Shown here: one piece after another, positions 34,833-61,006 of the stretch
Layout of the letters: the number at the start of each line of letters is the position of its first letter
Numbering within the stretch: the first letter of the stretch is position 1
Assembly (NCBI GenBank): GCA_016185205.1
Contig: JACPOA010000031.1
Coordinates: forward strand, 186,001 to 250,000
DNA length: 64,000 nt
Source of the DNA: Hyphomicrobiales bacterium
Lineage (GTDB): Bacteria > Pseudomonadota > Alphaproteobacteria > Rhizobiales > Xanthobacteraceae
Direction: 5' to 3'
Notes under the pieces: model-generated
The model's input: only the letters and a program-made list of their open reading frames with translations
Told to the model about the DNA's origin: nothing
Databases searched by the model: none
Position numbers and translations under genes: made by a program

Positions 34833-35145
34833 GTTTCTTCCTGAATCAAAGGAGAGGATCACGCATCGGCATCCACTGCCGGCGCTCGATTGTTGAGAAT
34901 TTCGGTAAACTTGCGCCGAGCGGCAGGCGGCGGTTGGCTAGCTCTTCTCCCACCCTTGCTTGCAATATCGACGCTTCTCGCGACAACCCTGCACGATAAG
35001 CGCGCGAGCCGATTGCTTCATTTTCCAATAGCCGCATCGCATGAGCAACGGTCCGCACTTCGCAACTTCCAGGCGTTGCTATCAACCTAAAAATAGGCAC
35101 AATAACTGCGCCTGTTTGGCGTGTGGCGTCTCGGAAACAACTCAA
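34833..35145. other. Intergenic region between tRNA-Arg and molybdenum hydroxylase operon
   Basis: This 313-base stretch has no convincing gene. An open frame on the minus strand covers it but continues antisense through the hydroxylase gene and has no homologue I recognise. Near its right end are CCTAAAAATAGG (35086-35097) and the 25-bp motif described separately. No integrase, direct repeat of the tRNA 3' end, or insertion sequence is visible. Confidence 0.6.
35079..35103 (+). promoter_or_regulatory. Shared 25-bp motif, copy 1 (before Mo-hydroxylase operon)
   Basis: It starts CTATCA, has CTAAAAATAGG at positions 9-19, and contains the partial palindrome CCTA-N4-TAGG. It matches the copy at 55182-55206 (read on the minus strand) at 19 of 25 positions and the copy at 60982-61006 at 14. 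It ends 42 bases before the ATG of the molybdopterin subunit, a position suited to an operator or activator site. Confidence 0.5.
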
Positions 35146-37497
35146 ATGGCAACGCACGGAATTGGAGCCTCCGTCCTCCGCAAAGAGGACGATCGGTTCC
35201 TGCGGGGACGTGGGCAATACGTCGGCGATTTTCGTCTGACCGGCACACGCGATGTGGCCTTTGTTCGAAGTCCTGTGGCGCACGCTCGACTGGAACACGT
35301 TCACGTTCCAGATGAATTCAAGAACGTCGTTTTCACCGCAAAACATCTGACTGGCATCAAGCCGATCATCTCGGCCCCATCGGTCAAAGGCTTCAAGTAC
35401 TCCGTTGAACCGATCCTGGCCACCGACAAGCTGCGCTATGTCGGTGAAATGGTGGCGATGTGCGTGGCGCCGACCCGTGCCGAAGCGGAGGATATCGCTG
35501 GCGCCGTCACGCTCGAATTTGAGGAATTGCCGCCCGTCACCGATATGCTTTCGGCTTGCGAACCCGGCTCGCCGCTGGTTCACGAGGAGTGGGGTGACAA
35601 TATTTTCGTCGAATTCAGCGAGAATGGGCCGATCGAGGAGGTCGCCAAAACCGCGGCGATCAAAGTCACCAAGACAATCCGAACCGCCCGGCATTGCATG
35701 TTCCCCATGGAAGGGCGGGGCGTCATTGCCTATCGTGATCCGCGGTTGAGATACCTCACGCTCATTACGTCGACGCAGTTCCCGCACTCGGTTCAGACCG
35801 GCCTTTGCGAGTGCCTCGGGCTCGACCACGGCCTTGTTCGGATCATCTCGCCCGATGTCGGCGGTGGCTTCGGATACAAGGGACTCTTGTGCCCCGAAGA
35901 GGTCGCTCTCGGCTGGCTTGCGCTGCAGGTCGACCATCCCGTGCGCTGGCTTGAGGACTGCCGAGAACATCTCACGGCGAATGCGAATTGCCGCGAACAT
36001 CACTATCAGATCACCGGTTATGCGGATGCCGATGGCAAATTGCTGGCCATTGATTGTGTCGCGCATGTCGATGCAGGGGCTTATTCCGCCTACCCGATTT
36101 CTTCCGGCCTTGAGGCCGCACAAATCGCCAACCTCCTGCCCGGGCCATACGTTTTCTCGGCATACCGTTGCCGGTCTTTCGCGGTTGCGACCAACAAGTG
36201 TCCGACACTCCCCTATCGCGGCGTCGCCCGATCCGGCGTTTGCCTGGCAATCGAGGCGATCATGGATGCGATTGCTCGCGAAGCCGGGATGGAGCCAACC
36301 GAAGTCCGGTTGCGCAACATGGTCCGCCCGGAGCAAATGCCATTCGAGAATGTGGTCGGCAAGCATTTTGACAGCGGCGATCATCCTGAATGCATGCGAC
36401 GCGCCATCGAAGCCATTCGCCTGTCGGAGATCCGTGCGCGCCAGCAACGGCCAGAGCCCGATGGGCGGCTGATCGGCGTCGGACTTTCATTTTTCGTCGA
36501 ACAAGGTGCGCACGGAACCTCGGTGCTGGCGTCCTGGGGACGCCCGATCGTACCCGGCTATGAACAGGCAAATGTAAAGCTCACCGCCGATGGTGATGTT
36601 GAAATTCACGTCGGCACCCATTCACACGGGCAAGGGCACGAGACGACCTATGCCCAGGTCGCCTATGAGATTCTTGGGGTCAATTTCGATAAGATTAAGG
36701 TCGTTCAAGGCGACACACTTTACACGCCGTATTCGACATCTACCTGGGGTTCGCGTTCCATGGTGTATGGCGGCGGCGCGGTTGCCAATGCGTCTCGTCT
36801 CTTGGCCAAACGCGCAGCGCACATCGGTGCCTGGCTGTTACAAACCGACGTGGCGAATGTCCGCGTCGCCGACGGAAAAGTCATCGCCGGCAACAGCAGC
36901 GTCACGCTACGCGAGGTCGCGCGAGCCTGGTATTTGCAGCCGCAAAACCTTCCGCCCAATATCGACACAGGCGGGCTTGACGTGACTGCGGGATACCGCG
37001 CCGAGCGCGATAGCGGAACCTTCACCTACGCCGCACACGCCGCAGTCGTCGCCGTCGACCCGGCGACCGGGACCATCGAGATCTTGGATTATGTGGTGGT
37101 CGAAGACGGCGGCACACTCGTCAACCCGATGATCGTCGATGGGCAGATTTGTGGCGGTACGGCGCAAGGCATCGGCACCTGCCTGTACGAGATCATGCCC
37201 TTCGATGCGCAAGGCCAACCGCTGGCATCGACGATGATCGACTACATGCTGCCCGGGGCGACAGAAGTGCCGGATATTCGCGTGCTGCACATGCAGACGC
37301 CGTCACCCTATACCGAATTCGGAATCAAGGGCCTCGGCGAAGGCGGCGCGGTCGGACCGCCGGCCGCCATCGTTTCGGCGGTCAATGATGCGCTGCGGCC
37401 GCTCAACGTCGAAGTCCAGGATTTGCCGGTAACACCAGAGCGGATTCTGGCCGCCATCGATGCGTCACCCAAACGGGCAACGGTTGATCACGCATGA
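35146..37497 (+). CDS. Molybdenum hydroxylase large (molybdopterin-binding) subunit, xanthine dehydrogenase family
   Basis: This 783-residue catalytic subunit of an aerobic-type Mo hydroxylase hydroxylates an aromatic or heteroaromatic carbon or an aldehyde, using water. The N-terminal RKEDDRFLRGRGQYVGD motif and the catalytic glutamate in GLGEGGAVGPP (E732) are present. The substrate loop reads PYRGVARSG, resembling the AYRGAGR type and lacking the AYxCSFR with active-site Cys of true (form I) CO dehydrogenase, so CO oxidation is unlikely. Overlaps the FAD subunit gene by 4 bases. The ATG at 35146 fits family length. Third codon positions are richer in A/T than in genes left of the tRNA. Confidence 0.92.
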   Translation: MATHGIGASVLRKEDDRFLRGRGQYVGDFRLTGTRDVAFVRSPVAHARLEHVHVPDEFKNVVFTAKHLTGIKPIISAPSVKGFKYSVEPILATDKLRYVGEMVAMCVAPTRAEAEDIAGAVTLEFEELPPVTDMLSACEPGSPLVHEEWGDNIFVEFSENGPIEEVAKTAAIKVTKTIRTARHCMFPMEGRGVIAYRDPRLRYLTLITSTQFPHSVQTGLCECLGLDHGLVRIISPDVGGGFGYKGLLCPEEVALGWLALQVDHPVRWLEDCREHLTANANCREHHYQITGYADADGKLLAIDCVAHVDAGAYSAYPISSGLEAAQIANLLPGPYVFSAYRCRSFAVATNKCPTLPYRGVARSGVCLAIEAIMDAIAREAGMEPTEVRLRNMVRPEQMPFENVVGKHFDSGDHPECMRRAIEAIRLSEIRARQQRPEPDGRLIGVGLSFFVEQGAHGTSVLASWGRPIVPGYEQANVKLTADGDVEIHVGTHSHGQGHETTYAQVAYEILGVNFDKIKVVQGDTLYTPYSTSTWGSRSMVYGGGAVANASRLLAKRAAHIGAWLLQTDVANVRVADGKVIAGNSSVTLREVARAWYLQPQNLPPNIDTGGLDVTAGYRAERDSGTFTYAAHAAVVAVDPATGTIEILDYVVVEDGGTLVNPMIVDGQICGGTAQGIGTCLYEIMPFDAQGQPLASTMIDYMLPGATEVPDIRVLHMQTPSPYTEFGIKGLGEGGAVGPPAAIVSAVNDALRPLNVEVQDLPVTPERILAAIDASPKRATVDHA

Positions 37498-38315
37498 AGC
37501 CGGTCGCTTTTGATATCGTCCGCGCGCGCAGCCTGGCCGAGGCCACGCGACTGCTTGCGGAATCGGGCGGCACCGCGCGGCTGGTGGCCGGCGCGCAATC
37601 GCTCGGGCCCATGCTCAACCTGCGCCTGGCACAACCGCGTCTTTTGATTGACATCACCGGCATCCCGGACTTGACGCGGATCGAGGATACCGACGATTCG
37701 GTCACGATCGGCGCTTGTGTCAGCACGGCAAATATCGAAGACGGCCGTTTGCCCGGGCGCGGCTTGGATACGCTGCCGGCCGTGGCCGCGCATATCGCCT
37801 ATCGCGCCGTGCGCAATCGCGGCACCATCGGCGGCAGCCTGTGTCACGCTGACCCGGCTGCGGATTGGGTTTCCACGCTCTGCGCACTGGGCGCGGAATG
37901 TCTCATCACCGGCGTGAACGGTAAACGCCGACTGCTAGCCGATCAATTCATCTCTGGCGCCTATCAAACCGCGCTCGCCGCTGACGAAATATTGGAAGCG
38001 ATCCGTGTTCCGCGACTTTCTGCGGGTGGCCGTTGCGGTTACTACAAAGTCTGCCGCAAGGCCGGTGAATTCGCCATGGCGATCGGCGTCGTGCTGAACG
38101 ATCTTGATCGCGGCGTATTTCGCGTCGTCATCGGGGCAACGAAAGGGCGGCCAATTGTCATTACGGATGCGCGTGACCTTCAGCGCGCAGACGAGTCGAT
38201 CGACGATGACGCCATTCTGCGCGTGTTCGACAAACACGGCATTGTCGATCGCATCGCCCGCCGTCAAAAACTCGCCGCGCTTGCGCGCGCTTACAATCAA
38301 GCGATGAAGCCATGA
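37494..38315 (+). CDS. Molybdenum hydroxylase medium (FAD-binding) subunit
   Basis: This 273-residue CoxM-like flavoprotein carries electrons from the Fe-S subunit to the acceptor. FAD-binding motifs of the family are present: VAGAQSLGPMLNLRL (family AGGxSLxPxM) and RNRGTIGGSLCHADPAAD (TxGG/T(I)GGS motif). It is translationally coupled on both sides (4-base overlaps) and so belongs to a single three-gene operon in the order L-M-S, which is characteristic of many uncharacterised xanthine-dehydrogenase-type enzymes. Confidence 0.92.
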   Translation: MKPVAFDIVRARSLAEATRLLAESGGTARLVAGAQSLGPMLNLRLAQPRLLIDITGIPDLTRIEDTDDSVTIGACVSTANIEDGRLPGRGLDTLPAVAAHIAYRAVRNRGTIGGSLCHADPAADWVSTLCALGAECLITGVNGKRRLLADQFISGAYQTALAADEILEAIRVPRLSAGGRCGYYKVCRKAGEFAMAIGVVLNDLDRGVFRVVIGATKGRPIVITDARDLQRADESIDDDAILRVFDKHGIVDRIARRQKLAALARAYNQAMKP

Positions 38316-39517
38316 TACCGATCTGCCTCACCGTTAATGGACGCGTCGTGTCCAAAACCATCGAACCGCGGACTCATCTGGCGGATTTTCTTCGCGAGCG
38401 CCTCAACCTGACCGCCACGCATTTGCGTTGCGAGCAAGGCGCATGCGGTGCATGCACACTGCTTATCGACGGGCAGCCCGCCCGCTCATGCATAACCTAC
38501 GTTGCCTTGTGCGAGGGCGCTGACATCACCACAGTTGAAGGACTTGAGGACGACCCTATCATGGTCGCTCTGAGACGTGCGTTTTCGAAGGAGCACGGAC
38601 TGCAGTGCGGCTACTGCACGCCGGGTATGTTGGTGACTGCCCGCGATATCGTCATGCGGCTTTCCAATGCCGACCAAGCCCGCATCCGTACTGAGCTCAG
38701 CGGTAACCTTTGCCGCTGTACTGGCTATGTAGGCATTGTACGTGCGATTAGTCATGTCGTGGACGAGCGGCGCAGAGGCGAACTGGCGGGCATCGTGCGT
38801 CAGGAAGGCCCGCTCGGGCCAGTCGGGGCACGGCCGGCCGGATCAAACTCCGGCCGAGTGACCAACGCGCCAACCGCCGCCCCGAGCGCAAGGAAGGAAA
38901 CCTCACTTGGCGAGATTGCACTTGGGCTCGGAGGCCGCCAGCCGAACGTTGAGATCAAGCAATCCTTCGTGGTTTCGCGTTCACCCGCAGATGTATGGAA
39001 TTTCTTCTCTGATATTGCTCATGTCGTGCCGTGCCTACCAGGCGCGAGCCTCATTCGCCCGCCGGCTGGTGAGCACGTTGAAGGGAAGATGTCGGTCAAG
39101 CTTGGCCCAATAACTGCGAATTTCGTCGGACATGCCCGCATTATGCGCGACGACGCGCAACAGCGCGGCGTCATCATGGGAGCTGGCAACGACCAGTCGG
39201 GCGGATCACGGGCAGCGGGCGAGGCCGAGTATGTCTTGGAGCCGACCGCAAGCGGCGGTACGCGGGTTATGCTGACGATCCGGGCGCTGTTGGTCGGACC
39301 ACTGGCGCAGTTCGGCCGTAGCGGCATTGTCGAAGATATCGTGGCTCGGATCACCGAGGCATTCGCGTACAATCTCGAAGCCCGTCTCACCGGCGCGGTA
39401 TCGGTTGACGATCAAAGCGTTCAAGCGCCGCTCAAAGTCGGCACCCTGTTCCGGCAAGTCATGTGGGCTCGAATGAAAGCGATGTTCGCAACAATCTTTG
39501 TAGGTCCGAAGCCGTAA
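38312..39517 (+). CDS. Fusion of 2Fe-2S subunit (CoxS type) with CoxG/SRPBCC domain
   Basis: A 401-residue protein. Residues 1-150 are a normal small subunit with the plant-type [2Fe-2S] cysteines C40, C45, C48, C60 and the second cluster C99, C102, C134, C136. A low-complexity linker (about 150-205) leads to a CoxG/SRPBCC domain (about 212-375, VSRSPADVWNFFSDIAHV...CLPGASL). In CO dehydrogenase clusters CoxG is a separate protein proposed to anchor the enzyme to the membrane; here the tether is built into the Fe-S subunit. Third gene of the operon. Confidence 0.92.
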   Translation: MIPICLTVNGRVVSKTIEPRTHLADFLRERLNLTATHLRCEQGACGACTLLIDGQPARSCITYVALCEGADITTVEGLEDDPIMVALRRAFSKEHGLQCGYCTPGMLVTARDIVMRLSNADQARIRTELSGNLCRCTGYVGIVRAISHVVDERRRGELAGIVRQEGPLGPVGARPAGSNSGRVTNAPTAAPSARKETSLGEIALGLGGRQPNVEIKQSFVVSRSPADVWNFFSDIAHVVPCLPGASLIRPPAGEHVEGKMSVKLGPITANFVGHARIMRDDAQQRGVIMGAGNDQSGGSRAAGEAEYVLEPTASGGTRVMLTIRALLVGPLAQFGRSGIVEDIVARITEAFAYNLEARLTGAVSVDDQSVQAPLKVGTLFRQVMWARMKAMFATIFVGPKP

Positions 39518-40674: not shown

Positions 40675-40839
40675 AGCCGAAAATTGCGCCAGCGCACTGC
40701 GTCTCTTTGATATTTCGTCTTTATAAACAATGTATTATGCGATCTTCGCTGATGCCACAAAGGGCGTCACCTGCCCAACCTTCGGCCTTGCTACGCAAGC
40801 TCAGATCGGCGAACGTGGTATGGTTTTCTTGATGATAGT

Positions 40840-41679
40840 ATGAAGTCATTCCTCAGGGCCTCCGTCATGCGAGCCGCGATTTTGCCCACAGACACGATGA
40901 GCGCCGAAAATTCCCGCCAACATCTCTCGCCGCCGGTGCTGCGCATCAAGGCCGTGCGCAAGCTTTATCGCGAACTTGAGGCGATCCGGAATGTTTCGCT
41001 TGATGTCGCGGCATGCGAATTCGTGAGTGTCCTCGGCCCCAGCGGTTGCGGCAAAAGCACACTGCTGATGATGGTCGCCGGCCTGATCGATAAGACCGAC
41101 GGCGAGATTTTAATCAACGGCACACCGGTGACTGGTCCGCGCCCCGAAGTCGGTGTCGTATTTCAGCAGCCGGTCTTGCTGCCGTGGCGGACCGTTCTCG
41201 ACAATGTGCTGTTCCCGATTGAGCTCTTGAGACTACCGCGCGCAAAATACGTTCAACGCGCGATGGAGCTTCTGGCGATGGCGAAGATCGATGACTTCGC
41301 GCATCGTCTGCCGCGGCAGCTCTCCGGCGGAATGCGTCAACGTGCATCAATTTGCCGTGCACTCATCCACGATCCGAGCATCCTGCTCATGGACGAGCCG
41401 TTTAGCGCGTTGGACGCCATTACCCGGGACGAGATGGGTGTCGAGTTGCTCCGCATCTGGCAGGCCAACCGCAAGACCGTCATTTTCGTGACCCACAGCA
41501 TCCGCGAAGCGGCATTCCTATCGGACCGGGTCCTTGTAATGGGTCGGCGCCCGGCGACCATTATTGAGGAAATGACGATCGATCTTCCTCGTCCGCGGCA
41601 CATCGCGATGATGGAAGAAGAGCAATTCAATCAACATGTCCGCAAGCTACGCAAAGCGATAGAGGCGAGCCATGTCTAA
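40840..41679 (+). CDS. ABC transporter ATP-binding protein, SsuB/TauB type
   Basis: ATPase of a nitrate/sulfonate/taurine-type importer. Walker A GPSGCGKST, signature LSGGMRQR, Walker B ILLMDEPFSALD and switch THSIREA are intact. The longest frame from the ATG at 40840 gives 279 residues, but ATGs at 40867 and 40897 are also in frame. The latter (MSAENSRQH) gives usual family length and would leave free a half-copy of the shared regulatory motif at 40832-40843, so I suspect a later start. No start has a clear ribosome-binding site. Overlaps the permease by 8 bases. Confidence 0.9.
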   Translation: MKSFLRASVMRAAILPTDTMSAENSRQHLSPPVLRIKAVRKLYRELEAIRNVSLDVAACEFVSVLGPSGCGKSTLLMMVAGLIDKTDGEILINGTPVTGPRPEVGVVFQQPVLLPWRTVLDNVLFPIELLRLPRAKYVQRAMELLAMAKIDDFAHRLPRQLSGGMRQRASICRALIHDPSILLMDEPFSALDAITRDEMGVELLRIWQANRKTVIFVTHSIREAAFLSDRVLVMGRRPATIIEEMTIDLPRPRHIAMMEEEQFNQHVRKLRKAIEASHV

Positions 41680-42472
41680 GTTGTTTAATAAGATACGCAT
41701 TTTCATTATCGAATTGGGCTGGCCGATCGGGATTAGCTTGGCCATGCTGGTGCTTTGGGAAATTGCCGTCCGCGAACTCGGCATCCGTAGCATCATTTTG
41801 CCTCCACCGTCCGAGATCATCGATGCAATGATCCAGCGCCACGAACTCCTGCTGGCACATTTGTGGCCTTCGCTCTACCTGACTGTGCTGGGCTTCGCGC
41901 TATCAGTCGTCGGCGGCATGGCGGTCGCAGTCTTGATCACCTATTCGTCGATCCTGCGAAAGGGTTTTTACCCGATCATTGTCGTGTCGCAGGTCGTTCC
42001 GAAGATTGCGATCGCGCCCTTGTTCATCGTCTGGTTCGGAACCGGAACGATGTCCAGCCTGCTGCTGGCCTTCCTCATCGCCTTCTTTCCGATGACGATC
42101 AATTCCGCCTTGGGATTTCAATCGATCGATGAAGACATTCACCGGATGGCGCGCACCTTCATGGGCACGCGCGGGCAGATCTTCTGGAAGATCAGGATGC
42201 CGAATGCCATGCCCTACATCTTCAGTGGGATGAAGATCTCGATCACACTGGCGATCATCGGCGTCATCGTGTCGGAGTTCGTCGCATCGCAGGAAGGCAT
42301 CGGCTACCTCATCAAGCTTGCCGGCGGACTGCTCGACACGCCGCTGATGATGGCGGCGATCACCGTCCTGAGCATCAGCGGTCTTGCCCTGTATGGCCTT
42401 ATCGTGCTCGCCGAACAGCGTACGGTCTACTGGCAGACGCCGACGGACATGAGCGGCGGGGCCGGAGGCTAG
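41672..42472 (+). CDS. ABC transporter permease, SsuC/TauC type
   Basis: A 266-residue inner-membrane permease with about six helices. The cytoplasmic EAA loop (MARTFMGTRGQIFWKIRMPNAMPYIFSGMKIS) marks the binprotdep/BPD family. It works with the ATPase upstream and the periplasmic binding protein encoded two genes downstream. The family imports small organic anions or heteroaromatics (taurine, sulfonates, pyrimidine precursors); the substrate is not readable. An amidase gene follows after 2 bases, suggesting an amide or N-containing cargo. Confidence 0.9.
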   Translation: MSKLFNKIRIFIIELGWPIGISLAMLVLWEIAVRELGIRSIILPPPSEIIDAMIQRHELLLAHLWPSLYLTVLGFALSVVGGMAVAVLITYSSILRKGFYPIIVVSQVVPKIAIAPLFIVWFGTGTMSSLLLAFLIAFFPMTINSALGFQSIDEDIHRMARTFMGTRGQIFWKIRMPNAMPYIFSGMKISITLAIIGVIVSEFVASQEGIGYLIKLAGGLLDTPLMMAAITVLSISGLALYGLIVLAEQRTVYWQTPTDMSGGAGG

Positions 42473-42474
42473 CG

Positions 42475-43521
42475 ATGGTGCAAACCGCGCGGGAGATCGA
42501 TGGCACGATGAAACACCTGCCCGCGCGTTTCGACACCGTTCATATCGGCTTTCACGATGCTGGGCTCGATCCGGTACTCGAGATCGATAGCGGCAGCGAG
42601 GTCGTTGTCAGCACTGTTTCCGCCGACCCCGAGCATGACGTCCCCGCGCAATGGCTACCGCCACAAATTCATGACATTTTTGTACGGGCAAAGCGCGGCA
42701 CCGGACCGCACATCCTCACGGGGCCGATTGCGGTTCGCGGCGCTCGGAGCGGGCAGGTCTTGCAGGTCGATATCCTGGACATCAGACTCACGCAGCCTTA
42801 CGGCTACAACATCGTGAGTCCGGTCAAGGGGATGTTCGGGACCGAGACACCGACCCAGAAGACCACGATCATCCCCATCGACCTTGAGACCGGTCTCGCC
42901 GAAGTGGCGCCGGGTCTACGCGTGCCGACGCGCCCATTTTTCGGGCAACTCGGCGTTGCGCCTCCGCGCGAATGGGGGCGTCTCGACAGCCGGCCGCCCA
43001 ATAAGTACGGCGGCAACATCGACAACAAGGAGATGGTGCCGGGAACGCGCCTGTTCCTGCCGATATGGGTCGACGGCGCACTGTTCAGCGTCGGCGACGG
43101 CCACGCCGCGCAGGGCGACGGCGAGGTGAACCAGACGGCGATCGAAACCAGCCTCGATGGCCACTTCCGGTTATCGCTGCGGAGCGATTTTACGATCGAG
43201 TTGCCGCTTGCGGTGACGCCCAATCATCTGATGACAATGGCGTTCCATGAAGATCTCGATGATGCCGCACGCATCGCCATGCGAACCATGATCGGATTGC
43301 TCGAACGGCACTACGGCATGCAATTCCATGACGCCTACCGGCTCTGCAGCATTGCCGCCGATATGCGCGTCACGCAATTTGTCAATGGAAACCGCGGCAT
43401 CCATGTTCTGCTCGCCCGCGATCTGCTGCGGCAACTGCCATGCACGCTCGATCTTTTCGAGCAGTTGCCGGCGGTCGCATCACGGTCGAGCAAGCAGATG
43501 CCGCTGGCTCAACGGTCGTGA
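42475..43521 (+). CDS. Acetamidase/formamidase family protein
   Basis: A 348-residue enzyme of the FmdA/AmdA family that hydrolyses short amides to acid plus ammonia. The signature is intact: GQLGVAPP, GGNIDNKEMVPGTRLFLP, and FSVGDGHAAQGDGEVNQTAIE. It lies between the permease and binding protein of the ABC transporter and begins 2 bases after the permease stop with a GGAGG site overlapping that stop region, so it is made together with the importer. Its natural substrate may be the imported compound or an intermediate. The C-terminus is somewhat divergent. Confidence 0.92.
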   Translation: MVQTAREIDGTMKHLPARFDTVHIGFHDAGLDPVLEIDSGSEVVVSTVSADPEHDVPAQWLPPQIHDIFVRAKRGTGPHILTGPIAVRGARSGQVLQVDILDIRLTQPYGYNIVSPVKGMFGTETPTQKTTIIPIDLETGLAEVAPGLRVPTRPFFGQLGVAPPREWGRLDSRPPNKYGGNIDNKEMVPGTRLFLPIWVDGALFSVGDGHAAQGDGEVNQTAIETSLDGHFRLSLRSDFTIELPLAVTPNHLMTMAFHEDLDDAARIAMRTMIGLLERHYGMQFHDAYRLCSIAADMRVTQFVNGNRGIHVLLARDLLRQLPCTLDLFEQLPAVASRSSKQMPLAQRS

Positions 43522-51804: not shown

Positions 51805-52826
51805 TTCTGAGACGCCTCCGACGCGGCCGGAGCCGGCGATCTTTTACGGCCGGACATGTAATGCTCGATCGCGGGCACGATGCCGCGCGGCAGGAAATAG
51901 ACGACCGCCACCATTAGCACGCCATAGATGATCCACTGTACTTCGGGCTCGATCGCCATGGCGCGCAAGGCCTCCGGCACGAAGCCGAACAGCGCGCCGC
52001 CGACGATCGGGCCCGCCAGCGTGCCTTTTCCTCCCGTGATCACCATGATCACCATCGTCACGGTGTAGATGAACAGGAAGATGTCGGGGTCGACGATGCG
52101 GATGTAGTGGGTGTAAAGCGCACCCGCCATGCCCGCGATACCTGCCGATACGACGGTGGCGACCACCAGATAGTGCGTGACGTCGATGCCAACCGACATG
52201 GCCAGCGACTCGTTCTCCCGCAACGCGATCATGGCCCGGCCAGCGCGAGAATTGACCAGCCGCGCGATGATGACGTAGCAGGCGACCGCTGTCGCAAGCA
52301 CGAGAAGATAGACCGCCGGCTTGCGCAGGAACGACAGCTCGAACGCGTCGGCGCCGAGGACCAGAGCCGGGATGTTATTGAGTGCCATCGGGCCTTGCGT
52401 CAGCTCGACCCAGTTCAGCGCGACGAGTCGCACGACCTCGGCGAAGCTGATCGAGACGATCACGAAATAGGCCCCACGCACCCGGAACGATAGTTTGCCG
52501 ATGGCATAGCCGGTGAGCCCCGCGACCACGATGGCGCACAGCATCGCGAACCAGACCGGCTTCGGTGCGAGGCCGACGGTGAAATCCGGCAGCAGATGCA
52601 CCTCGAAGCCGAGCGAAACGAGCGCACTCGTGTAGGCACCGATACCGAAGAACGCGACATGCCCGAGCGAGAGCTGGCCCGTGAAGCCGAGCAGCAGGTT
52701 GAGGCTCATGGCCGCGATAATGAATATCCCGGTCGTGATCATCACATGCAGCACGTAGAAATCGTTCAGCCAGAGCGGGACTGACGTTAGCAGCGCCACG
52801 AATAACCAGGGGAGGAAACGACTCAC
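51801..52826 (-). CDS. livM: Branched-chain amino acid-type ABC transporter permease LivM
   Basis: A 341-residue permease with about ten hydrophobic segments. LivM-type blocks are present: SLNLLLGFTGQLSLGHVAFFGIGAYTSA, RAGRAMIALRENESLAMSVGIDV and TGGKGTLAGPIVGGALFGFVPE. Coupled to livH and livG by 4-base overlaps. Confidence 0.93.
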   Translation of the reverse strand: MSRFLPWLFVALLTSVPLWLNDFYVLHVMITTGIFIIAAMSLNLLLGFTGQLSLGHVAFFGIGAYTSALVSLGFEVHLLPDFTVGLAPKPVWFAMLCAIVVAGLTGYAIGKLSFRVRGAYFVIVSISFAEVVRLVALNWVELTQGPMALNNIPALVLGADAFELSFLRKPAVYLLVLATAVACYVIIARLVNSRAGRAMIALRENESLAMSVGIDVTHYLVVATVVSAGIAGMAGALYTHYIRIVDPDIFLFIYTVTMVIMVITGGKGTLAGPIVGGALFGFVPEALRAMAIEPEVQWIIYGVLMVAVVYFLPRGIVPAIEHYMSGRKRSPAPAASEASQK

Positions 52827-53722
52827 CCGATCCGTTCCTTCTGCGCGAAAAGACCGGTCGGCCGCACCAGCAGGATCAGGATGATGAGCAGGAATCCCAT
52901 GGCATCACGGTAGCCCGAGGAGATGTAGCCGGCGCCTATCTCTTCCACAAATGCGAGGATGAAGCCGCCCAAAGTGGCCCCGGTGATGTTACCGAGACCG
53001 CCGAGGATGACGATCGCGAAAGCCTTCGAGGCTGCGAGATCGCCCATCGTCGGCGCGACGACGAATACGGGGCCGAGCAGCGCGCCGGCCGCGGCCGCGA
53101 GGCTGGAACCCAGCGCGAACGTTGCGGTGTGGATGCGGTCGATCCGGATGCCCATGAGCGCAGCCGTATCCCGATCCTGGAATGTCGCGCGCATCGCCTT
53201 GCCCAGCCGCGTGCGGTTGACGAGATAGTAGGTCGCGCCGATCAGCAGAAGCGCAATCGCGAACACGTAGACCCGGTTCCAGGAGACCGATAAGGGGCCG
53301 AGCACAAACGGTTCGGCGGGAAACGGGTTGGCGATCGAGTGCGCCACGCCTGACCACACGAATTGCTCGGTGTTCTGCATCGCGATCCAGGCGCCGATCA
53401 TCACCAGCATTGTGGTGTCGATGTCGGCGCCGCGCAGGCGGCTGAGCAGCAGCAGCTCGATGGCGCCACCAAGCGCCGCCCCGAGCACCATCGCCAGCAC
53501 GAGGGCTAGGAAAAAATTGACGCCTAGCAACATCACCAGCGCGTACATACAGTAGGCGCCAAAGGCATAGAGTTCGCCATGGGTGAAATTGACCAGGCGC
53601 ATGATGCCGAAGATCAGCGTCAGCCCTATCCCCAGGAGCGCATAGGTGCCGCCGAGGATCGTTGCATTCAGAAGATGCTGTACCAGCTGGTCCAAGTCTT
53701 CGCGCTCCAAGCAAAGCGTCAC
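52823..53722 (-). CDS. livH: Branched-chain amino acid-type ABC transporter permease LivH
   Basis: A 299-residue permease with LivH blocks GLTLIFGIMRLVNFTHGELYAFGAY, RTRLGKAMRATFQDRDTAALMGI and ILGGLGNITGATLGGFILA. The start at 53722 gives a slightly long N-terminus (MTLCLEREDLDQ); it lies 54 bases after the livK stop, with a strong hairpin filling the gap. Confidence 0.92.
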   Translation of the reverse strand: MTLCLEREDLDQLVQHLLNATILGGTYALLGIGLTLIFGIMRLVNFTHGELYAFGAYCMYALVMLLGVNFFLALVLAMVLGAALGGAIELLLLSRLRGADIDTTMLVMIGAWIAMQNTEQFVWSGVAHSIANPFPAEPFVLGPLSVSWNRVYVFAIALLLIGATYYLVNRTRLGKAMRATFQDRDTAALMGIRIDRIHTATFALGSSLAAAAGALLGPVFVVAPTMGDLAASKAFAIVILGGLGNITGATLGGFILAFVEEIGAGYISSGYRDAMGFLLIILILLVRPTGLFAQKERIG

Positions 53723-53727
53723 AAGTG

Positions 53728-53765
53728 CGAGGGCACGAGCGCCAGGGCGGCGGCTCGTGCCCTCG
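53728..53765 (-). terminator. Intercistronic hairpin between livK and livH (attenuator or mRNA stabiliser)
   Basis: Arms 53728-53740 and 53753-53765 are a perfect 13-bp inverted repeat (CGAGGGCACGAGC and GCTCGTGCCCTCG) with a 12-base loop. No T-run follows. Such hairpins after a binding-protein gene usually raise its expression over the permease genes by partial termination or by protecting the 3' end. Confidence 0.8.
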
Positions 53766-53776
53766 TGTCATTTTGA

Positions 53777-54934
53777 TCAGAAAGAGGTCTTCCCCACTTT
53801 GCCGTTGGCGATCGTCACCAAATAGACGGTGGGCACGTTCTGTCCGCTCTCCTTGCCGGCCGGTCCCTGTTTGGTGAAGGCGATGTCGCCGTAGACCCCC
53901 TTCACCTTGACGCCCCAAAGCGCAGCGCGGATGGCCTCAGGTTCCGGCTTGCCGGCCGCCTTGATGGCGGCGACGGCAACGAAGACGCCGTCATAACCGC
54001 GATAACCCTCGGTCAGCCCCCCGACGTTGTGACCGCGCTTCTTCCACTCGTCCATGTAGCGCTTGGCGACGTCCGGGTTCTTGGTCACTTCGGGGAACCA
54101 AGGCGGGAAGAAGGTGGTGTGGAACGAGCCGTTAGCCGCATCGCCCGCTTGTTCGATCAACTGATCGGGTGAGTTCGAGCCGCCGCAGGAGACGACCCGG
54201 ACCTTGAGCTGCTGTTCCTTGGCCTGCTTCAGGATCAGCGTGAGCTGCTCGACTGCGGTGGTCACAAACAAGGTATCGCCGCCCGAGGCCTTGATTTTGG
54301 CGAGCTGCGCGGAGAAGTCGGTCGCTTTCGGATCCATCGTCTCCATGATCCCGACTTGCACGCCATTGGCTTTCAGCATCTTCGAGAACTCGGCGCCCGA
54401 GCCGATACCGAAGTCGTTGTTGGTGTAGAGGAAGTCCGCCTTCTTGATGCCCATCTTGGCGACCAGCGACTGGAAGGCCTTCGCTTCCATTTCGGAGGTC
54501 GGGCTGATGCGGAAGATATAGGGGTTGCCCGAGGTGGTGATCTTGCCCGAGGAGGAGGTCTCGACCACCATCGGCACGCGGTACTCTTCGAGCTTGGGCA
54601 TCACCGCCAGCGTCAGCGTCGAACTCCACGCGCCGACGAGGACAGGTACCTTGTCTTTCTGGATGAGCTTCTCGACGGTGCTGACCGCTTCCGTCGGATT
54701 GGACTTGTTGTCTTCGATGATGAGCTGGATCTTCTTGCCCAGCACGCCGCCGGCCTTGTTGATCTCGTCTTCGGCGATTTTCGCGCCCTGCGCCACGTAG
54801 TTGCCCGACGCCGCGAACGCGCCGGTCAGCGGCTGCGTGACGCCGATTTTGATCGTCTCCTGCGCATACGCGCCCGAGACGCCGCCGCCGGCCATTATGG
54901 CCGCCGCCGTCATCAGCAATGCGAGCTTCCTCAT
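53777..54934 (-). CDS. livK: Branched-chain amino acid-type ABC substrate-binding protein (LivK-like)
   Basis: A 385-residue periplasmic protein with signal peptide MRKLALLMTAAAIMAGGGVSGAYA. The mature part starts QETIKIGVTQPLTGAFAASG and shows the Peripla_BP_6 pattern (AEDEINKAGGVLGKKIQLIIEDNKSNP; GAWSSTLTLAVMPKLEEYRVPMV). The ATG at 54934 is chosen because the frame upstream to 55177 does not look like protein and the signal peptide fits. First gene of livKHMGF. Ligand unknown; the gene neighbourhood suggests an organic nitrogen compound rather than simple leucine. Confidence 0.92.
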   Translation of the reverse strand: MRKLALLMTAAAIMAGGGVSGAYAQETIKIGVTQPLTGAFAASGNYVAQGAKIAEDEINKAGGVLGKKIQLIIEDNKSNPTEAVSTVEKLIQKDKVPVLVGAWSSTLTLAVMPKLEEYRVPMVVETSSSGKITTSGNPYIFRISPTSEMEAKAFQSLVAKMGIKKADFLYTNNDFGIGSGAEFSKMLKANGVQVGIMETMDPKATDFSAQLAKIKASGGDTLFVTTAVEQLTLILKQAKEQQLKVRVVSCGGSNSPDQLIEQAGDAANGSFHTTFFPPWFPEVTKNPDVAKRYMDEWKKRGHNVGGLTEGYRGYDGVFVAVAAIKAAGKPEPEAIRAALWGVKVKGVYGDIAFTKQGPAGKESGQNVPTVYLVTIANGKVGKTSF

Positions 54935-55181
54935 GTCGACTCCCTCTGATATGCGTCGACCTCGGTCGACGACCTGTTGCACCCTTGAAAACCACTCGGC
55001 CAAACCGGATCGAGCGGGACGCAGAGACGATTGCTTATTGTAGCCAGCCGATTGGGGATTGAGAGCCACGGTCGCCGCTTTGGCGCAAGGCAATTCGTAA
55101 CTGTTCGGCAGAGTGCGGCGCCGACGGTCCGACTGTGTCTCAGATGCGGCCTGCACGGGCACCCTCCAATCTCGCACGCTA

Positions 55182-55206
55182 AGTCATCCTATTTTTAGAA
55201 TGATAG
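55182..55206 (-). promoter_or_regulatory. Shared 25-bp motif, copy 2 (upstream of liv operon)
   Basis: Read on the minus strand it begins CTATCATTCTAA, continues AAATAGG and ends ATGACT. It agrees with the copy at 60982-61006 at 20 of 25 positions and with the copy at 35079-35103 at 19 of 25. On the plus strand it includes the dyad TCATCCTA-N4-TAGAATGA (55184-55203, 7 of 8 matching pairs). It is about 250 bases upstream of livK, in the same orientation. Confidence 0.55.
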
Positions 55207-55316: not shown

Positions 55317-56687
55317 TCAGCACTCAGGAACGTTGACGGCAAGACCGCCGCGCGAGGTCTCCTTGTATTTCGACTGCATGTCGGCGCCGGTTTGTCGCAT
55401 CGTTTCAATTACTTGATCGAGCGAGACGCGATGGGTCCCATCGCCGCGCAGCGCCAGCCATGCGGCATTGATCGCCTTCACCGCGCCAAATGCATTTCGC
55501 TCGATGCACGGTATTTGCACGAAGCCGCCGATCGGATCGCAGGTCATACCAAGATGATGCTCGATGCCGATCTCGGCGGCATTTTCGATTTGCCGGTTGC
55601 TGCCGCCGAGTGCTGCAGTTAATCCGGCCGCTGCCATCGAGCACGCGGTCCCGACTTCTCCCTGACACCCGACCTCCGCGCCGGAGATCGACGCATTCAT
55701 TTTGCACAGCGATCCGATCGCTGCCGCCGTGAGAAGGAACGTCCGCTCGCCCTGCTGGGGGTCGCCCGGGCAATGATCGCGGTAATATTTGAGGACGGCC
55801 GGGATCACGCCAGCGGCACCATTGGTCGGCGCAGTCACGACGCGTCCGCCGGCTGCGTTCTCTTCATTGACCGCGATGGTATGGATATTCACACTTTCCA
55901 TCGCCTCGTGCGGCCGTTGAAAATTGCGCTGATCGGCGCTGTTCAAACGCTCGTGTAGCGAACGTGCCCGTCGCTGGACATTGAGGCCGCCGGGCAATTG
56001 GCCGGTCGCCCGGATGCCACGTTCGATGCAATCGAACATGACGGCCGCAATGCGGTCGATGCTTGCAAGCACCGTGGTTTCCGGCCGCAACGCTTTCTCG
56101 TTCGCGAGGACGAGATCGGCGATCGCGATGGAATTGGCGTGGCAAAGCGAAAGGAGCTCTTCGGCGCTGCGGTAATTGAACGGAAATGCGACCTGGGACG
56201 CCTGCGCCGCGGTGTCCTCGCCTTCCCGGATGATGAAGCCGCCACCGACCGAATGCCAAGTCTCCTCCACCAAGGCGCGGCCATCGGCATCGAATGCCGC
56301 CAAGGTCAAAGTATTGGAGTGGCCCGGCAATATCCGTTCCAGGTCAAAAACGATATCGCGTTCTCGCCTGAACGGAATCGAATGGTCGCCCGTCAGCGGC
56401 AGCCGGCCGGTCGCACAAATATCGGCAAAACGCTTGTTGGCGTCATCCGGATCGATCGTCTCGGGCAGGCAACCGATAAGGCCGAGCGCAATGGCCTTTT
56501 CGGTGGCATGCCCCTTTCCCGTCCACGCCAGCGAGCCGAAGAGCGTGACCTGAATGCGCACGATTCCGGCCGACCGCGGATGCTTCAGCACCGAGGCGCG
56601 AAAGCAACCCGCGGCTTTCATGGGGCCGGTGGTATGCGAAGACGAAGGACCGATGCCGATCTTGAAGAGATCGAAGACGCTGATCAT
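55317..56687 (-). CDS. sdaA: L-serine ammonia-lyase (iron-sulfur dependent)
   Basis: A 456-residue single-chain L-serine dehydratase that makes pyruvate and ammonia. The N-terminal [24 protein letters not shown] is the beta-domain signature. The alpha domain has the [4Fe-4S] cysteines in [24 protein letters not shown] and [14 protein letters not shown]. The start follows the LLM oxidoreductase stop by 24 bases, so it is the last gene of the PLP/CoA-transferase operon. It may act on serine made from glycine (gcv plus serine hydroxymethyltransferase) or on a related hydroxy-amino acid released in that pathway. Confidence 0.95.
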
Positions 56688-56711
56688 CGGTTCTCCACCG
56701 AATTATCCACC

Positions 56712-57665
56712 CTAGCTCTTCAGCCGAGGAATGATCTCGCGTGCGATGATCTCGATCTGCTCCATCTCGTACCGGTAAGGCACAAAGATCAGCTTTTGCA
56801 CGCCGACCGCGAGGTGCGCCTTCAATTGCTCGACGCATTCGTCGACCGTGCCGAGGATCGCGCTGTCCTTGGTCGAGTCGCTCCAGGAAGCGAAATCCCA
56901 TTCCTTGCCGAGCCATTCCATCATGCCGCTCTCGACCTCCGCTCGCGACTTCCCGATGCGAATCGGAAGCTGCGAAGCATTGAGCAGCGAGTCGGGATCT
57001 TTGCCGCCTTCCTTGGCGAAATCGCGAATCTTGGCCCACGACTTGGCGAAGCTGTCGGCCCGATAGAAATACGTCAGCCATCCGTCGCCGTCGACCGCGG
57101 CGCGCTTTAGGACGCGGTCGACATAGCCGCCGATCAGGATCGGCGGTCGCGGCTTCTGCACCGGCTTCGGATACATGACGCCCGCCGGGATCTTGTGGAA
57201 CATGTATTCGCCGCGGACCGTCTCCTCGGTCCAGAACCGCGTCAAGATCTCGAGGTTCTCGTCCATGATCTTGCCGCGCTTTTCGAACGGCACGCCGACG
57301 GCGTCGAATTCGCGCCGGTACCAGCCTGAGGCCATGCCCATCAGCAGGCGACCGTTCGACAGCAGATCCATGCTGGCCAATTGCTTGGCGAGAATCACCG
57401 GATTGCGCATCGGCAGCACAAGGATGCCAGTGCCGAGCTTGATCTTATTGGTGCGCGCGGCGATGGCGGTGAGCAGCGTGAGCGATTCGATGATGGGGAA
57501 GTTCGGCTCCACGCCGAGCAGAATGTGATCCCAAACCCACAGCGAGTCAAAGCCGAGCTGCTCCATCTTCACGCCGTATTCGACCAGGGCCCGCGCGTCC
57601 GGCATTTCCGGATACGCCGTGAAATTGCGTGCCGCGATGCCGAACGTTCCGCTCAACGACTTCAT
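56712..57665 (-). CDS. LLM class flavin/F420-dependent oxidoreductase
   Basis: A 317-residue luciferase-like (TIM-barrel) protein of the type that uses F420 or FMN. The pattern GFDSLWVWDHILLG, the KIKLGTGILVLPMRNPVILAKQLASMD block and ASGWYRREFDAVGVPFEKRG are characteristic of F420-associated LLM families. With cofC and fbiC two genes upstream of the operon, F420 use is likely but not provable from these residues. It is the fourth gene of the operon (33 bp after CoA-transferase B). Confidence 0.88.
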   Translation of the reverse strand: MKSLSGTFGIAARNFTAYPEMPDARALVEYGVKMEQLGFDSLWVWDHILLGVEPNFPIIESLTLLTAIAARTNKIKLGTGILVLPMRNPVILAKQLASMDLLSNGRLLMGMASGWYRREFDAVGVPFEKRGKIMDENLEILTRFWTEETVRGEYMFHKIPAGVMYPKPVQKPRPPILIGGYVDRVLKRAAVDGDGWLTYFYRADSFAKSWAKIRDFAKEGGKDPDSLLNASQLPIRIGKSRAEVESGMMEWLGKEWDFASWSDSTKDSAILGTVDECVEQLKAHLAVGVQKLIFVPYRYEMEQIEIIAREIIPRLKS

Positions 57666-57698
57666 GTTGAATTTCTCCCCGATGATTCTGCTGCGTCG

Positions 57699-58469
57699 CT
57701 ACGCGATAAAGAGCCGCTCTGGATCGAGCGTGCGGAGCAAGGACAATTCATGTTCGGTTGGCGGCTCGGTCACGCCGGTGTCGTGCGTGAATTCGAGCTT
57801 GAATCCGGTATTGTCCTGCACCTGTTCGCGGGTGACGCCCGGATTGAGCGCGAGCGGCTTCATCCGCCGCGTCTCCTCGTCGAAGCCGAACACCGCAAGA
57901 TCGGTCACAACGCGAAACATGCCGCCGGCCGGCAGCCCGCTTTCGCGGCGCGTATCGCGGCCGCGCAGCCAGCCGGGGCTGGTGATGAAATCGACCTGCT
58001 CCACAAACCGCCGCTTTTCGTGCTGCATCGCCACGATCATGTTCGTGAGACTGGAGATGTCGTTGCCGCCGCCGGTGCCCGGCAGCCGCGTCGTCGGCTT
58101 CTTCGGGTCGCCGATGAACGAGCTGTTGAGATTGCCGTATTGATCAATCTGCGCCCCACCCATGAAGCCGACATCGATGTAGCCGCGCTGCAGCAGCAGC
58201 AAGACGTCGGCGCTGCTGAGCACCATATTGGCCCGCTGGGTGCAGCGCTGGTCGTTGGTCGAGGGCGGCAGCTTTCCGGGCTCGATGAGCGCGCCGATGA
58301 CGCCGCCTTCGAACAGGATCGTCAGACCGGGACAGTGCAGGCGCTGCGCCAGCGTCGCCGCGAGCAGCGGAATGCCGACGCCGGCGAACACCACCTGCCC
58401 GTCCTTGAGTTGACGCGCGCTCAGAATGGCGAGCAGCTCGCGCGCCGTATAGGCTGACTTAAGTGTCAT
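57699..58469 (-). CDS. CoA-transferase subunit B (glutaconate CoA-transferase / IpdB-like)
   Basis: A 256-residue family I CoA-transferase beta-type subunit: YTARELLAILSARQLKDGQVVFAGVGIPLLAATLAQ, then LFEGGVIGAL and GFMGGAQIDQYGNLNSSFIGD. Overlaps the A-subunit gene by 11 bases. The size pair (319/256) matches glutaconate CoA-transferase or the IpdAB-type ring hydrolases better than the short-chain acyl CoA-transferases. Whether it transfers CoA or hydrolyses a ring cannot be told here. Confidence 0.88.
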   Translation of the reverse strand: MTLKSAYTARELLAILSARQLKDGQVVFAGVGIPLLAATLAQRLHCPGLTILFEGGVIGALIEPGKLPPSTNDQRCTQRANMVLSSADVLLLLQRGYIDVGFMGGAQIDQYGNLNSSFIGDPKKPTTRLPGTGGGNDISSLTNMIVAMQHEKRRFVEQVDFITSPGWLRGRDTRRESGLPAGGMFRVVTDLAVFGFDEETRRMKPLALNPGVTREQVQDNTGFKLEFTHDTGVTEPPTEHELSLLRTLDPERLFIA

Positions 58470-59418
58470 AGATCGATTTTCCCGCGCGTGCGGCCACGAG
58501 CAGATCGTCGAGCCCGATGAGGTCGAGGAACTCGGTCCACGACTTCGGGCCGTATACGAACCGCTCCAGATATTCCTGCATGCCTTTGACAGGATCCTTG
58601 TTCACCAAATCGACGTAGTACTGCATGTGCCGCATCATCGGCTCATAGACGCCGTAACATTCGTGCGGCGCGCAGCCGAACGGAAGCTCGACAACCGCGT
58701 CGACGGTGAAGAATGGAATCTTGGTCTGGTCCGGCGCACGCCGAATCTGATCATTGGTAATGATACGTTCGGTGGTCAAAATGACCTTGTTGGCGGCCAT
58801 CGCCAGGTCCATATCCATAAACTGCAGGCCATCGATCTGCGCGTTGCCGTAAGGATCGCACCGCTGCACGTGGATCAGGGCCACATCGGGATTGAGCGCG
58901 GGAACCAGCAGGAGCTTTTCGCCGGTAAACGGACAGTCCATTTCCTTGGCTTCGGGCCGCAGCTGCAAAACGTCGGAACCGAGCATTGAGCGTATCGGCA
59001 TGAATGGGATGCCCATGGCGCCGGCACGAAAACGCATGCCGAGTGCCATATGACTCCATTCGTCATAGCGCGCCTTGCCGGTCTCGGCATAGTGACGCAT
59101 CACCTTGGAGACGCCCCACAGAATTCCCTGGCTGAACCAGCTGGTCGTTATCCGCTCGCACGCGCCCGAGCCGAACAGCAGATCGCCGTCGCTGGATACG
59201 ATGCAGCGGGACACCGATAGCTTTTTCCGCTTGGCGCGAATGAGCGCCCAGATCAACCCCATCGGCGTGCGCGACATGGTGCTGCCGCCGACACCGACGG
59301 AATCTCCATCGTGCACGAAGGATGCCGCCTCCTCGAGCGAAACAACCTTTTCGCGCAAACTCCGATCGCGCTGCGCGATATCCTTTCGCAGCTTGCTGTA
59401 GGGAATGACCTCGCTCAT
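58459..59418 (-). CDS. CoA-transferase subunit A (glutaconate CoA-transferase / IpdA-like)
   Basis: A 319-residue alpha-type subunit: SLEEAASFVHDGDSVGVGGSTMSRTP near the N-terminus (glycine-rich CoA loop) and LIHVQRCDPYGNAQIDGLQFMDMDLAMAANKVILTTE as the core signature. Partner of the subunit encoded immediately downstream. Its start overlaps the end of the PLP-enzyme gene by 4 bases, so stoichiometric expression is likely. Confidence 0.88.
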   Translation of the reverse strand: MSEVIPYSKLRKDIAQRDRSLREKVVSLEEAASFVHDGDSVGVGGSTMSRTPMGLIWALIRAKRKKLSVSRCIVSSDGDLLFGSGACERITTSWFSQGILWGVSKVMRHYAETGKARYDEWSHMALGMRFRAGAMGIPFMPIRSMLGSDVLQLRPEAKEMDCPFTGEKLLLVPALNPDVALIHVQRCDPYGNAQIDGLQFMDMDLAMAANKVILTTERIITNDQIRRAPDQTKIPFFTVDAVVELPFGCAPHECYGVYEPMMRHMQYYVDLVNKDPVKGMQEYLERFVYGPKSWTEFLDLIGLDDLLVAARAGKSIYDT

Positions 59419-60911
59419 GTCGCCTTCCTGTCGCCAACTTCAGCGTTGAATTCCTGTATGAGACGGTCCCATGCCGGAATGCTATCGACGAGAGAGTGCC
59501 AAAATTCCTGACTCTTGCGACGGTCGAAATCTTCGACCGAGATGCCCTGCTGCTCGACCCAAGTGTAATAACCGAGATTGAAAATGCGCTTACGATCGAT
59601 GTGACGAAGCTCCATCACGTGATCGTCGGCGATGCCCTCCAAATGGCGCGCGAAAATCTCGCCGGCATTTACGTCGTCGAACCCCTCAGGATACCGTCGC
59701 GCAAGATAGGTCTGCCGTTCGCTGCCATAGAGCGCGGCGCTATCGGTCGCCACGGTCATCACCACATCGTTGGGACCGTAATTGAGATGTTTGGCAAGCT
59801 TGATGGCAGCCACGATATTCGCCAGGCCCGAAATTCCGATATCGGTAAATTTCTGAATCAGCTCCGACTCGATCTTCCGTCGGCTGGCCATGTAATTGCG
59901 GCCGTGCTCGCTTCCGAACAGTAGATTCAACGCATCGCTCGCCGCATCCGAGACCCCAACTACGACGTCGGTATTCATGACGTTGTGGATGAGCGGGATA
60001 TGCTTGTCGCCGATGCCCTGAATGTTGTGCTCGCCATAACCGTTGCAAAACATTGTCGGGCACTCGATCGCCTCCATGGCGGCGATCTTTGTACCATAGA
60101 GTTTTTTGAGTCGATCGCCAGCGGCGATCGTGCCTGCCGATCCGGTCGCCGAGACAAATGCTGCAAGACGATAATCTTTATGATCCCATTTGAGATGGCC
60201 GAATACGCGTTCGAACGCATGCCCAGTGCAATGATAATGGATTAGATAATTGGCAAATTCTGAAAACTGATTGAGAATCACGTTCTGCTGGTCTCGCTTA
60301 AGCTCCGCGCATTTGTCGTAAATCTCCTTGACGTTGCTTTCCGTGCCGGGCGTGCGGATGATGTCCGCAGGATCGGCGACCCAATTCTGCAGCCAATCAA
60401 AGCGCTCGCGACTCATCCCGGCGGGAAGAACGGCAACGCCGCGACAGCCGAGAATGCGCGAGATTGCAACCCCGCCGCGGCAATAATTTCCGGTCGAGGG
60501 CCATACCGCCCGGTCATGCGAAGGGTCGAATTGACCCGTCACCAGCCGAGGCACCAGACAGGCGTAAGCCGCGAGCACCTTGTGCGCACCGATCATTGGA
60601 AAGCGGCAACCGAGAAGGACCACGACCGGCGCCTTTACGCCGGTTAGTTCCGGCGGCAGCACCACGTAACCTGGGACATCGATTTGCGTCTTGCGGTCGG
60701 CACTGTTGAACCAGTGGACCCGCCAGAGATTGGCGGCATCCGCCGCGTCCGGGTCGACCCGCGAAAGGTCCGGCAATTTCTCAGGCTCGATCTCGCCGGG
60801 ATCGGCAAGCTCGCTCCAAGTCGGGAGCGTGCCATGAACTTGGCGGAGACGGTCGACCGCAGCGCGCCGGCGGGTGCCATCGACAACATTCGGTTGAATG
60901 AAAAGACTCAT
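59415..60911 (-). CDS. Fold-type II PLP-dependent enzyme of unknown substrate
   Basis: A 498-residue protein with an apparent cysteine-synthase/threonine-synthase fold. Probable PLP lysine in MIGAHKVLAAYA, the asparagine/phosphate loop STGNYCRGGVA, and the glycine-rich phosphate-binding ATGSAGTIAAGDRLK. A roughly 85-residue N-terminal extension and a long C-terminal domain distinguish it from ordinary cysteine synthases. I know similar sequences only as 'pyridoxal-phosphate dependent protein, beta subunit'. First gene of the operon with CoA-transferase, LLM oxidoreductase and serine dehydratase; a beta-elimination or beta-replacement on an amino-acid-like intermediate is a reasonable guess. 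Confidence 0.8.
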   Translation of the reverse strand: MSLFIQPNVVDGTRRRAAVDRLRQVHGTLPTWSELADPGEIEPEKLPDLSRVDPDAADAANLWRVHWFNSADRKTQIDVPGYVVLPPELTGVKAPVVVLLGCRFPMIGAHKVLAAYACLVPRLVTGQFDPSHDRAVWPSTGNYCRGGVAISRILGCRGVAVLPAGMSRERFDWLQNWVADPADIIRTPGTESNVKEIYDKCAELKRDQQNVILNQFSEFANYLIHYHCTGHAFERVFGHLKWDHKDYRLAAFVSATGSAGTIAAGDRLKKLYGTKIAAMEAIECPTMFCNGYGEHNIQGIGDKHIPLIHNVMNTDVVVGVSDAASDALNLLFGSEHGRNYMASRRKIESELIQKFTDIGISGLANIVAAIKLAKHLNYGPNDVVMTVATDSAALYGSERQTYLARRYPEGFDDVNAGEIFARHLEGIADDHVMELRHIDRKRIFNLGYYTWVEQQGISVEDFDRRKSQEFWHSLVDSIPAWDRLIQEFNAEVGDRKAT

Positions 60912-60981
60912 CGCACGGGTTCCGTTTCATCCGTCCGCCACCTGCAGGAGACGCCCCCGGCATGTCGCGAAGCGATCATAA

Positions 60982-61006
60982 AGTCATACTATGATTAGAA
61001 CAATAG
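60982..61006 (-). promoter_or_regulatory. Shared 25-bp motif, copy 3 (before PLP/CoA-transferase operon)
   Basis: On the minus strand it begins CTATTGTTCTAA and ends ATAGTATGACT, with TCATACTATGA as an 11-base near-perfect palindrome. It matches copy 2 at 20 of 25 positions. It lies 70-95 bases before the ATG of the PLP enzyme, within the 99-base gap after fbiC, so the PLP operon probably has its own regulated promoter here. A half-copy (11 of 12 bases around ATAGTATGA) is at 40832-40843. Confidence 0.55.

Follow-up and report, generated by a model that had tools for sequence, protein, structure and literature searches.

A palindrome shared by import, catabolic and F420-synthesis operons is a predicted operator of a HutC-type GntR regulator on a mobile island

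Contig JACPOA010000031.1 of a Hyphomicrobiales bacterium (Xanthobacteraceae; assembly GCA_016185205.1) carries three copies of a promoter motif in the 64,000-nucleotide stretch analysed here, the window (positions 186,001 to 250,000). The first-pass annotation had proposed that they define a regulon for import and breakdown of a single substrate. Our data suggest that a single HutC-type GntR regulator binds the copies as its operators and acts on one gene set, a prediction from sequence that we hold with a probability of about 0.7. The full element in the site alignment is a 26-bp palindrome, approximately CTATCATNCTANNNNTAGNATGATAG, whose first 25 bases are the motif originally described. It is tied to the regulator over many Alpha- and Betaproteobacteria, and the motif-bearing gene set is a 40.4-kb mobile, tRNA-associated island that has relatives elsewhere among soil bacteria, nodulating Sinorhizobium included. 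Five operators of at least 16 bits are found in the genome, upstream of two molybdenum (Mo) hydroxylase copies, a Liv-type importer, an operon headed by a pyridoxal phosphate (PLP) enzyme and the npdG-cof operon for synthesis of the rare cofactor F420.

The copies lie at 35079-35103, 55182-55206 and 60982-61006, as first reported, with recounted pairwise identities of 19, 20 and 14 of 25. As palindromes they extend over 35079-35104 on the forward strand (operator 1, 24.2 bits, upstream of Mo-hydroxylase copy 1) and over 55181-55206 (operator 2, 36.0 bits, upstream of the Liv importer) and 60981-61006 (operator 3, 29.8 bits, upstream of the PLP operon) on the reverse strand. All three are intergenic, 42 bp upstream of the Mo-hydroxylase start, 247 bp upstream of the Liv binding protein gene and 70 bp upstream of the PLP gene. 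The motif is not scattered at random over the genome: a whole-genome search for the exact core pattern, CTATNNNNCTAANNATAG, gives three matches in 4.38 Mb, all inside the window, against none for the same pattern reversed, which served as control. The reversed pattern occurs 18 times across 149 genomes of the family, corresponding to 0.12 expected per genome and a probability of ~3e-4 for three or more. Nine further exact copies are present in seven other family genomes, eight of which stand upstream of homologous operons (Mo-hydroxylase, Liv binding protein or PLP/CoA (coenzyme A)-transferase), while the ninth (G040, contig C18) has no such neighbour. In related genomes the motif is therefore kept upstream of orthologous operons, a point on which the original proposal had been made to depend. 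A half-copy at the start of the SsuB gene (40832-40843), listed earlier alongside the three copies, is rejected as an operator: its letters are present, but it scores only 4.2 bits with the 26-bp matrix. One of ten SsuB promoters has a good site (L083, 22.7 bits).

The half-sites of the operator are CTATCATNCTA, with a spacing of 4 bp. All site counts reported here derive from a symmetric seed matrix of ten sites (four from this genome, six from family genomes) that was fixed before the locus test described below; it was used because an iterated matrix drifted to AT-rich DNA (389 sites versus 193 in reversed sequences at 10 bits) and was discarded. With the seed matrix, only the three known places in the window reach at least 14 bits, a result that is partly circular because four of the ten seeds come from this genome. 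Conservation of the inner CTA and TAG reaches 93-98% in 102 sites of at least 16 bits, although the matrix itself selected these sites and the figure is not independent. Sites lie at a median of 55 bp upstream of labelled genes (n = 90), and in 11 of 21 Mo-hydroxylase promoters TTG stands immediately before the site, in the manner of a -35 element.

The candidate regulator, a GntR/UTRA (HutC-type) protein of 282 residues, is encoded on this contig, 8.6 kb beyond the right end of the window (L039:8601-9449, equivalent to window coordinates 72601-73449); the scanned subset of window proteins contained no regulator. The gene adjoins a fourth operator, the best copy in the genome, and a fifth operator heads the F420 operon. 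Both this protein and its counterpart at L044:9043-9819 have a GntR winged helix and a C-terminal UTRA domain above the Pfam cut-offs. Orthologues are found directly upstream of the Mo-hydroxylase in L044, L045 and L046, and in these loci, as in L039, the regulator gene stands beside operators. Among solved structures the protein matches YvoA and DasR across most of its length. It falls below the family cut-offs for HutC (62.0 vs 220 bits) and PhnF (65.6 vs 156.8 bits) and is not equivalent to either of these proteins themselves.

The association between palindrome and regulator was tested on loci selected for their similarity to the regulator. Scanning for this protein alone yielded 49 loci, of which 44 were kept after removal of L058, L076, L077 and L078, judged to come from genomes that the motif had already led to, and of L085, which is nearly identical to L084. 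At 16 bits or more, 74 sites occur in 34 of the 44 loci, compared with five after sequence reversal; raising the threshold to 20 bits leaves 56 sites and none in the reversed control. Every one of the 74 sites is intergenic, though 91% of the bases are called coding. An earlier set of 46 loci, with 80 sites versus six reversed at 16 bits, shared two seed genomes (L077 and L078, from G040 and G144) and the analysis was repeated without them as the 44 loci. In the 46-locus set, operon heads bearing a site comprise YcsF (21/29), PxpB (17/23), PLP enzyme (9/11), Mo-hydroxylase large subunit (12/24), Liv binding protein (4/11), M20 hydrolase (4/8) and other genes (8/184). The conserved sites and the regulator-chosen loci strongly support the earlier idea that one factor co-ordinates Liv import with the breakdown genes. 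That part of the first-pass annotation stands and the SsuB half-site does not; the palindrome, the GntR gene, the F420 operon and the island had been missed, partly because they are located beyond the window.

The regulator is also linked to F420 across genomes. It is found at E ≤ 1e-78 in 23 of 149 family genomes (next best match 2e-62), and all 23 encode the F420-synthesis enzyme CofGH, which is present in 40 of the 149 overall. The corresponding hypergeometric probability of 1.4e-16 is uncorrected for relatedness and uses a cut chosen after the table had been seen, and several rows of that table contain stop codons within the matched stretch. The regulator is present in each of the eight genomes that contain the motif exactly, a partly circular observation in that the regulator alignment drew on four of them. 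The cofGH loci, taken with 1.5 kb flanks, were obtained from 30 of 40 family genomes and 19 of 53 other genomes of the class. An operator of at least 14 bits is present in 10 of 21 of these loci from regulator-positive genomes, one of nine from negative genomes and none of 19 from the class sample; the reversed-sequence control for the regulator-positive group gives 3 of 21. In a class sample of 337 genomes, CofGH is found in 54 and the regulator in three, showing that other lineages make F420 without it, and a role as a general F420 regulator is rejected on these counts.

In the window, Mo-hydroxylase copy 1 (35146-39517, forward strand) consists of a large subunit (35146-37497), a flavin adenine dinucleotide (FAD) subunit (37494-38315) and an Fe-S/CoxG subunit (38312-39517), assigned with Pfam. 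The Liv-type importer, comprising LivF, LivG, LivM, LivH and the binding protein (53777-54934), occupies 50322-54934 on the reverse strand. Also on the reverse strand, the PLP operon (55317-60911) encodes the PLP enzyme (59415-60911), GctA-like (58459-59418) and GctB-like (57699-58469) proteins, a luciferase-like monooxygenase (LLM) family oxidoreductase (56712-57665) and an L-serine ammonia-lyase (55317-56687). The PLP protein is CysK-like and under every listed family cut-off; the two CoA-transferase proteins, CTa and CTb, have glutaconate CoA-transferase as their best solved-structure match; and the LLM protein exceeds the cut-off of the F420-type family TIGR03619 (199.2 vs 166.9 bits). CofGH (FO synthase; 61011-63449, reverse strand; NCBIfam above cut-off) is the last gene of the npdG-cofE-cofD-cofC-cofGH operon, preceded by CofC (63452-64000, reverse strand; Pfam), which is cut by the window end. 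The operator and first genes of this operon lie to the right of the window in L039, and the F420 set is complete, with CofC, CofD, CofE, CofGH and the NADPH (reduced nicotinamide adenine dinucleotide phosphate):F420 reductase npdG detected.

Further island genes include an SsuBC/NMT1-type transporter set with a formamidase-like gene (40840-44649, forward strand; Pfam), which by promoter scores has no supported operator, and the glycine cleavage genes gcvP, gcvH and gcvT (44749-49215, reverse strand; Pfam, NCBIfam), for which the matrix scan of the window showed no operator. A nitroreductase-fold protein (49563-50333, forward strand) has as its best solved-structure match 4xom, deposited as an F420:L-glutamate ligase, which we take to be the C-terminal domain of FbiB; it is possibly an F420 maturation enzyme.

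Relatives swap parts of the set for PxpA/B/C-like 5-oxoprolinase genes, diaminopropionate ammonia-lyase, PntA or a Rieske oxygenase branch. In L042 (16193-19352), L043 and L050, an operator lies between the Liv binding protein gene and a divergent operon of AllG-like, short-chain dehydrogenase/reductase and Rieske oxygenase genes. Operators also occur on PntA-type transhydrogenase genes (L072:368-3456, L082:2237-5270 and L190:29651-32577), and PntA under the operator may perhaps supply NADPH for F420 reduction. An operator-like site is located upstream of a UbiD-family decarboxylase gene in Pseudolabrys (L059:7187-8599), and an operator upstream of tripartite ATP-independent periplasmic (TRAP) transporter genes in Rhodovulum sp. 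PH10 (L086:14827-17853).

The island is inserted at a tRNA-Arg (CCG) gene at 34756-34832 on the forward strand (ARAGORN). An exact 39-bp repeat of its 3' end spans 34796-34834 and recurs 40.4 kb away at 75232-75270, outside the window (ending at L039:11270), where only a partial tRNA is present. The guanine-cytosine content is 60.7% between the repeats compared with 65.0 and 65.2% outside. In G489 (L203), a genome of the same genus, the right flank comes immediately after the left flank and tRNA, representing an empty site; it is the only one of 11 further genomes of the genus, all searched, in which such a site could be read. The scanned subset of island and border proteins contained no integrase.

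A plasmid search with the regulator returned 23 records, 12 of them from Sinorhizobium. On pSymA of Sinorhizobium meliloti R28 the gene set is present, with operators of at least 14 bits upstream of six operons and none in the reversed sequence; they precede livH, npdG, CoA-transferase (two), pntA, the Mo-hydroxylase and the binding protein. In the same strain, a diaminopropionate ammonia-lyase gene is split into two open frames (L190:38677-39870). S. meliloti GR4, KH35c and KH46 likewise carry the regulator, the same gene set and operators, with five sites in the fetched stretches of GR4 and KH46 and three in that of KH35c, which lacks the two upstream of the CoA-transferase. A genome-wide association study reports that k-mers from a 26-kb region of pSymA, one confined to these three strains, are associated with nodule competitiveness (PMC8407117). 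The accessible part of that paper lists functions for the region separately and proposes no regulon; its tags resemble our cluster in F420 synthesis, Liv, Mo-hydroxylase, GctA/B, LLM, M20, PntAB and a COG2188 GntR protein, and the regulatory-region matches given there fall upstream of COG2188 and COG1529 genes. From the strains and the gene list so far as given, we infer that the competitiveness region is this cluster.

Protein family and site position, with the median of 55 bp and the preceding TTG, point to a repressor. In the absence of inducer, a regulator dimer on palindromes near gene starts would block transcription until a pathway compound, by binding to the UTRA domain, released it. 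A derepressed cell would then make the Liv importer, the Mo-hydroxylase, F420 and its NADPH-dependent reductase together with a predicted F420-dependent LLM reductase and the PLP, CoA-transfer and hydrolytic enzymes that would finish the breakdown; in this genome the set would have arrived as the 40-kb island at tRNA-Arg. The combination of Mo-hydroxylase, F420-type reductase and cyclic-amide hydrolases suggests oxidation, reductive dearomatisation and ring opening of a nitrogen heterocycle, and judging by gene content the substrate is probably an N-heterocyclic compound. Tentatively, Proteobacterial F420 may here be an inducible catabolic cofactor of a mobile HutC-type regulon, with a plant or soil N-heterocycle dearomatised aerobically via F420H2 and an advantage in nodule occupancy for Sinorhizobium. 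An operator common to F420 synthesis and one set of catabolic genes predicts when and why this group makes F420 and renders its role testable in S. meliloti, where the scattered association matches would become one regulated, removable unit.

Several observations weigh against a single regulator and operator. Ten of the 44 loci have no site of at least 16 bits (L062, L063, L066, L080, L087, L090, L092, L103, L104 and L106), three of which, from Rhodoplanes, carry diverged palindromes. Of 35 regulator genes in the 46-locus set, only 12 bear a site themselves; many loci come from related species (for example several Ancylobacter and Afipia), so that the counts are not independent events; and at a looser cut of E ≤ 1e-35, CofGH is present in only 30 of 42 genomes with a regulator-like protein. 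Mismatch-tolerant patterns show no excess over controls, whether with up to three mismatches in the window (9 vs 7.7 expected), up to two in the genome (41 vs 101 reversed) or as a dyad with up to three in the genome (44 vs 60), and were dropped in favour of the 26-bp matrix because they performed no better than controls. Such numbers would suit a chance resemblance of AT-rich promoter DNA, an explanation we consider barely credible in view of the exact-match counts, the conservation upstream of orthologous operons and the reversed-sequence and column-permuted controls; the fixed-matrix test on 44 loci already contradicts it.

That another factor binds the palindrome, or that the linked GntR protein is an activator, seems unlikely. 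The assignment of the regulator depends on linkage, and several operators more than 200 bp from the called start are compatible with activation, but sites are present in 34 of 44 loci picked by the regulator protein, which itself matches the repressors YvoA and DasR. The regulon might also be real and serve a standard purine or uric acid pathway such as that encoded by the Escherichia coli reductive uricolytic cluster. A xanthine dehydrogenase-type hydroxylase, the M20 hydrolase and the diaminopropionate ammonia-lyase of some relatives favour this route, as does the F420-dependent LLM-family reductase proposed, in the part of the source available, for the Chloroflexota version (PMC12507026). 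We regard it as improbable: the SsnA-like match is below cut-off (232.6 vs 455.5 bits), and the parts of the uricolytic cluster listed in that portion of the source do not include GctAB, the Liv importer or 5-oxoprolinase-like genes. The uric acid route as such was set aside, and the gene set is not assigned to it, as the island has neither SsnA nor HyuA. The SsnA-like gene and a D-hydantoinase gene both lie on another contig of this genome (C83:75594-85560).

Compared with the reductive uric acid pathway as far as it is set out in PMC12507026 (XdhD, YgfK, SsnA, HyuA, YgeW, YgeY and YgeX), the gene set shares a Mo-hydroxylase, an M20 hydrolase, a PLP lyase and an LLM-family reductase like that proposed for the Chloroflexota version. 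Unlike that pathway, it lacks SsnA and HyuA on the island, has PxpABC-like or M20 variants, and adds a GctAB-like transferase, a Liv importer, a serine ammonia-lyase and its own regulator. The M20 hydrolase (L039:2793-4061) is above the ArgE/DapE subfamily cut-off (273.2 vs 217.6) and below the YgeY models; diaminopropionate ammonia-lyase is above cut-off in the relative L072.

Like the HutC-subfamily repressors HutC, PhnF, YvoA/NagR and DasR, the regulator combines a GntR winged helix with a UTRA domain, and its palindromic operators precede catabolic operons. The half-site of DasR-type sites contains CTA. The system differs from this subfamily in its sub-cut-off scores for HutC and PhnF, in half-sites 4 bp apart and in a gene set that includes F420 synthesis. 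Our literature search found no paper describing this regulon; the review of F420 biosynthesis (PMC8498797), in its accessible portion, describes none and calls the role open. The known Proteobacterial F420 biosynthesis clusters presented there resemble the island operon in CofC, CofD, CofE, CofGH and NADPH:F420 reductase.

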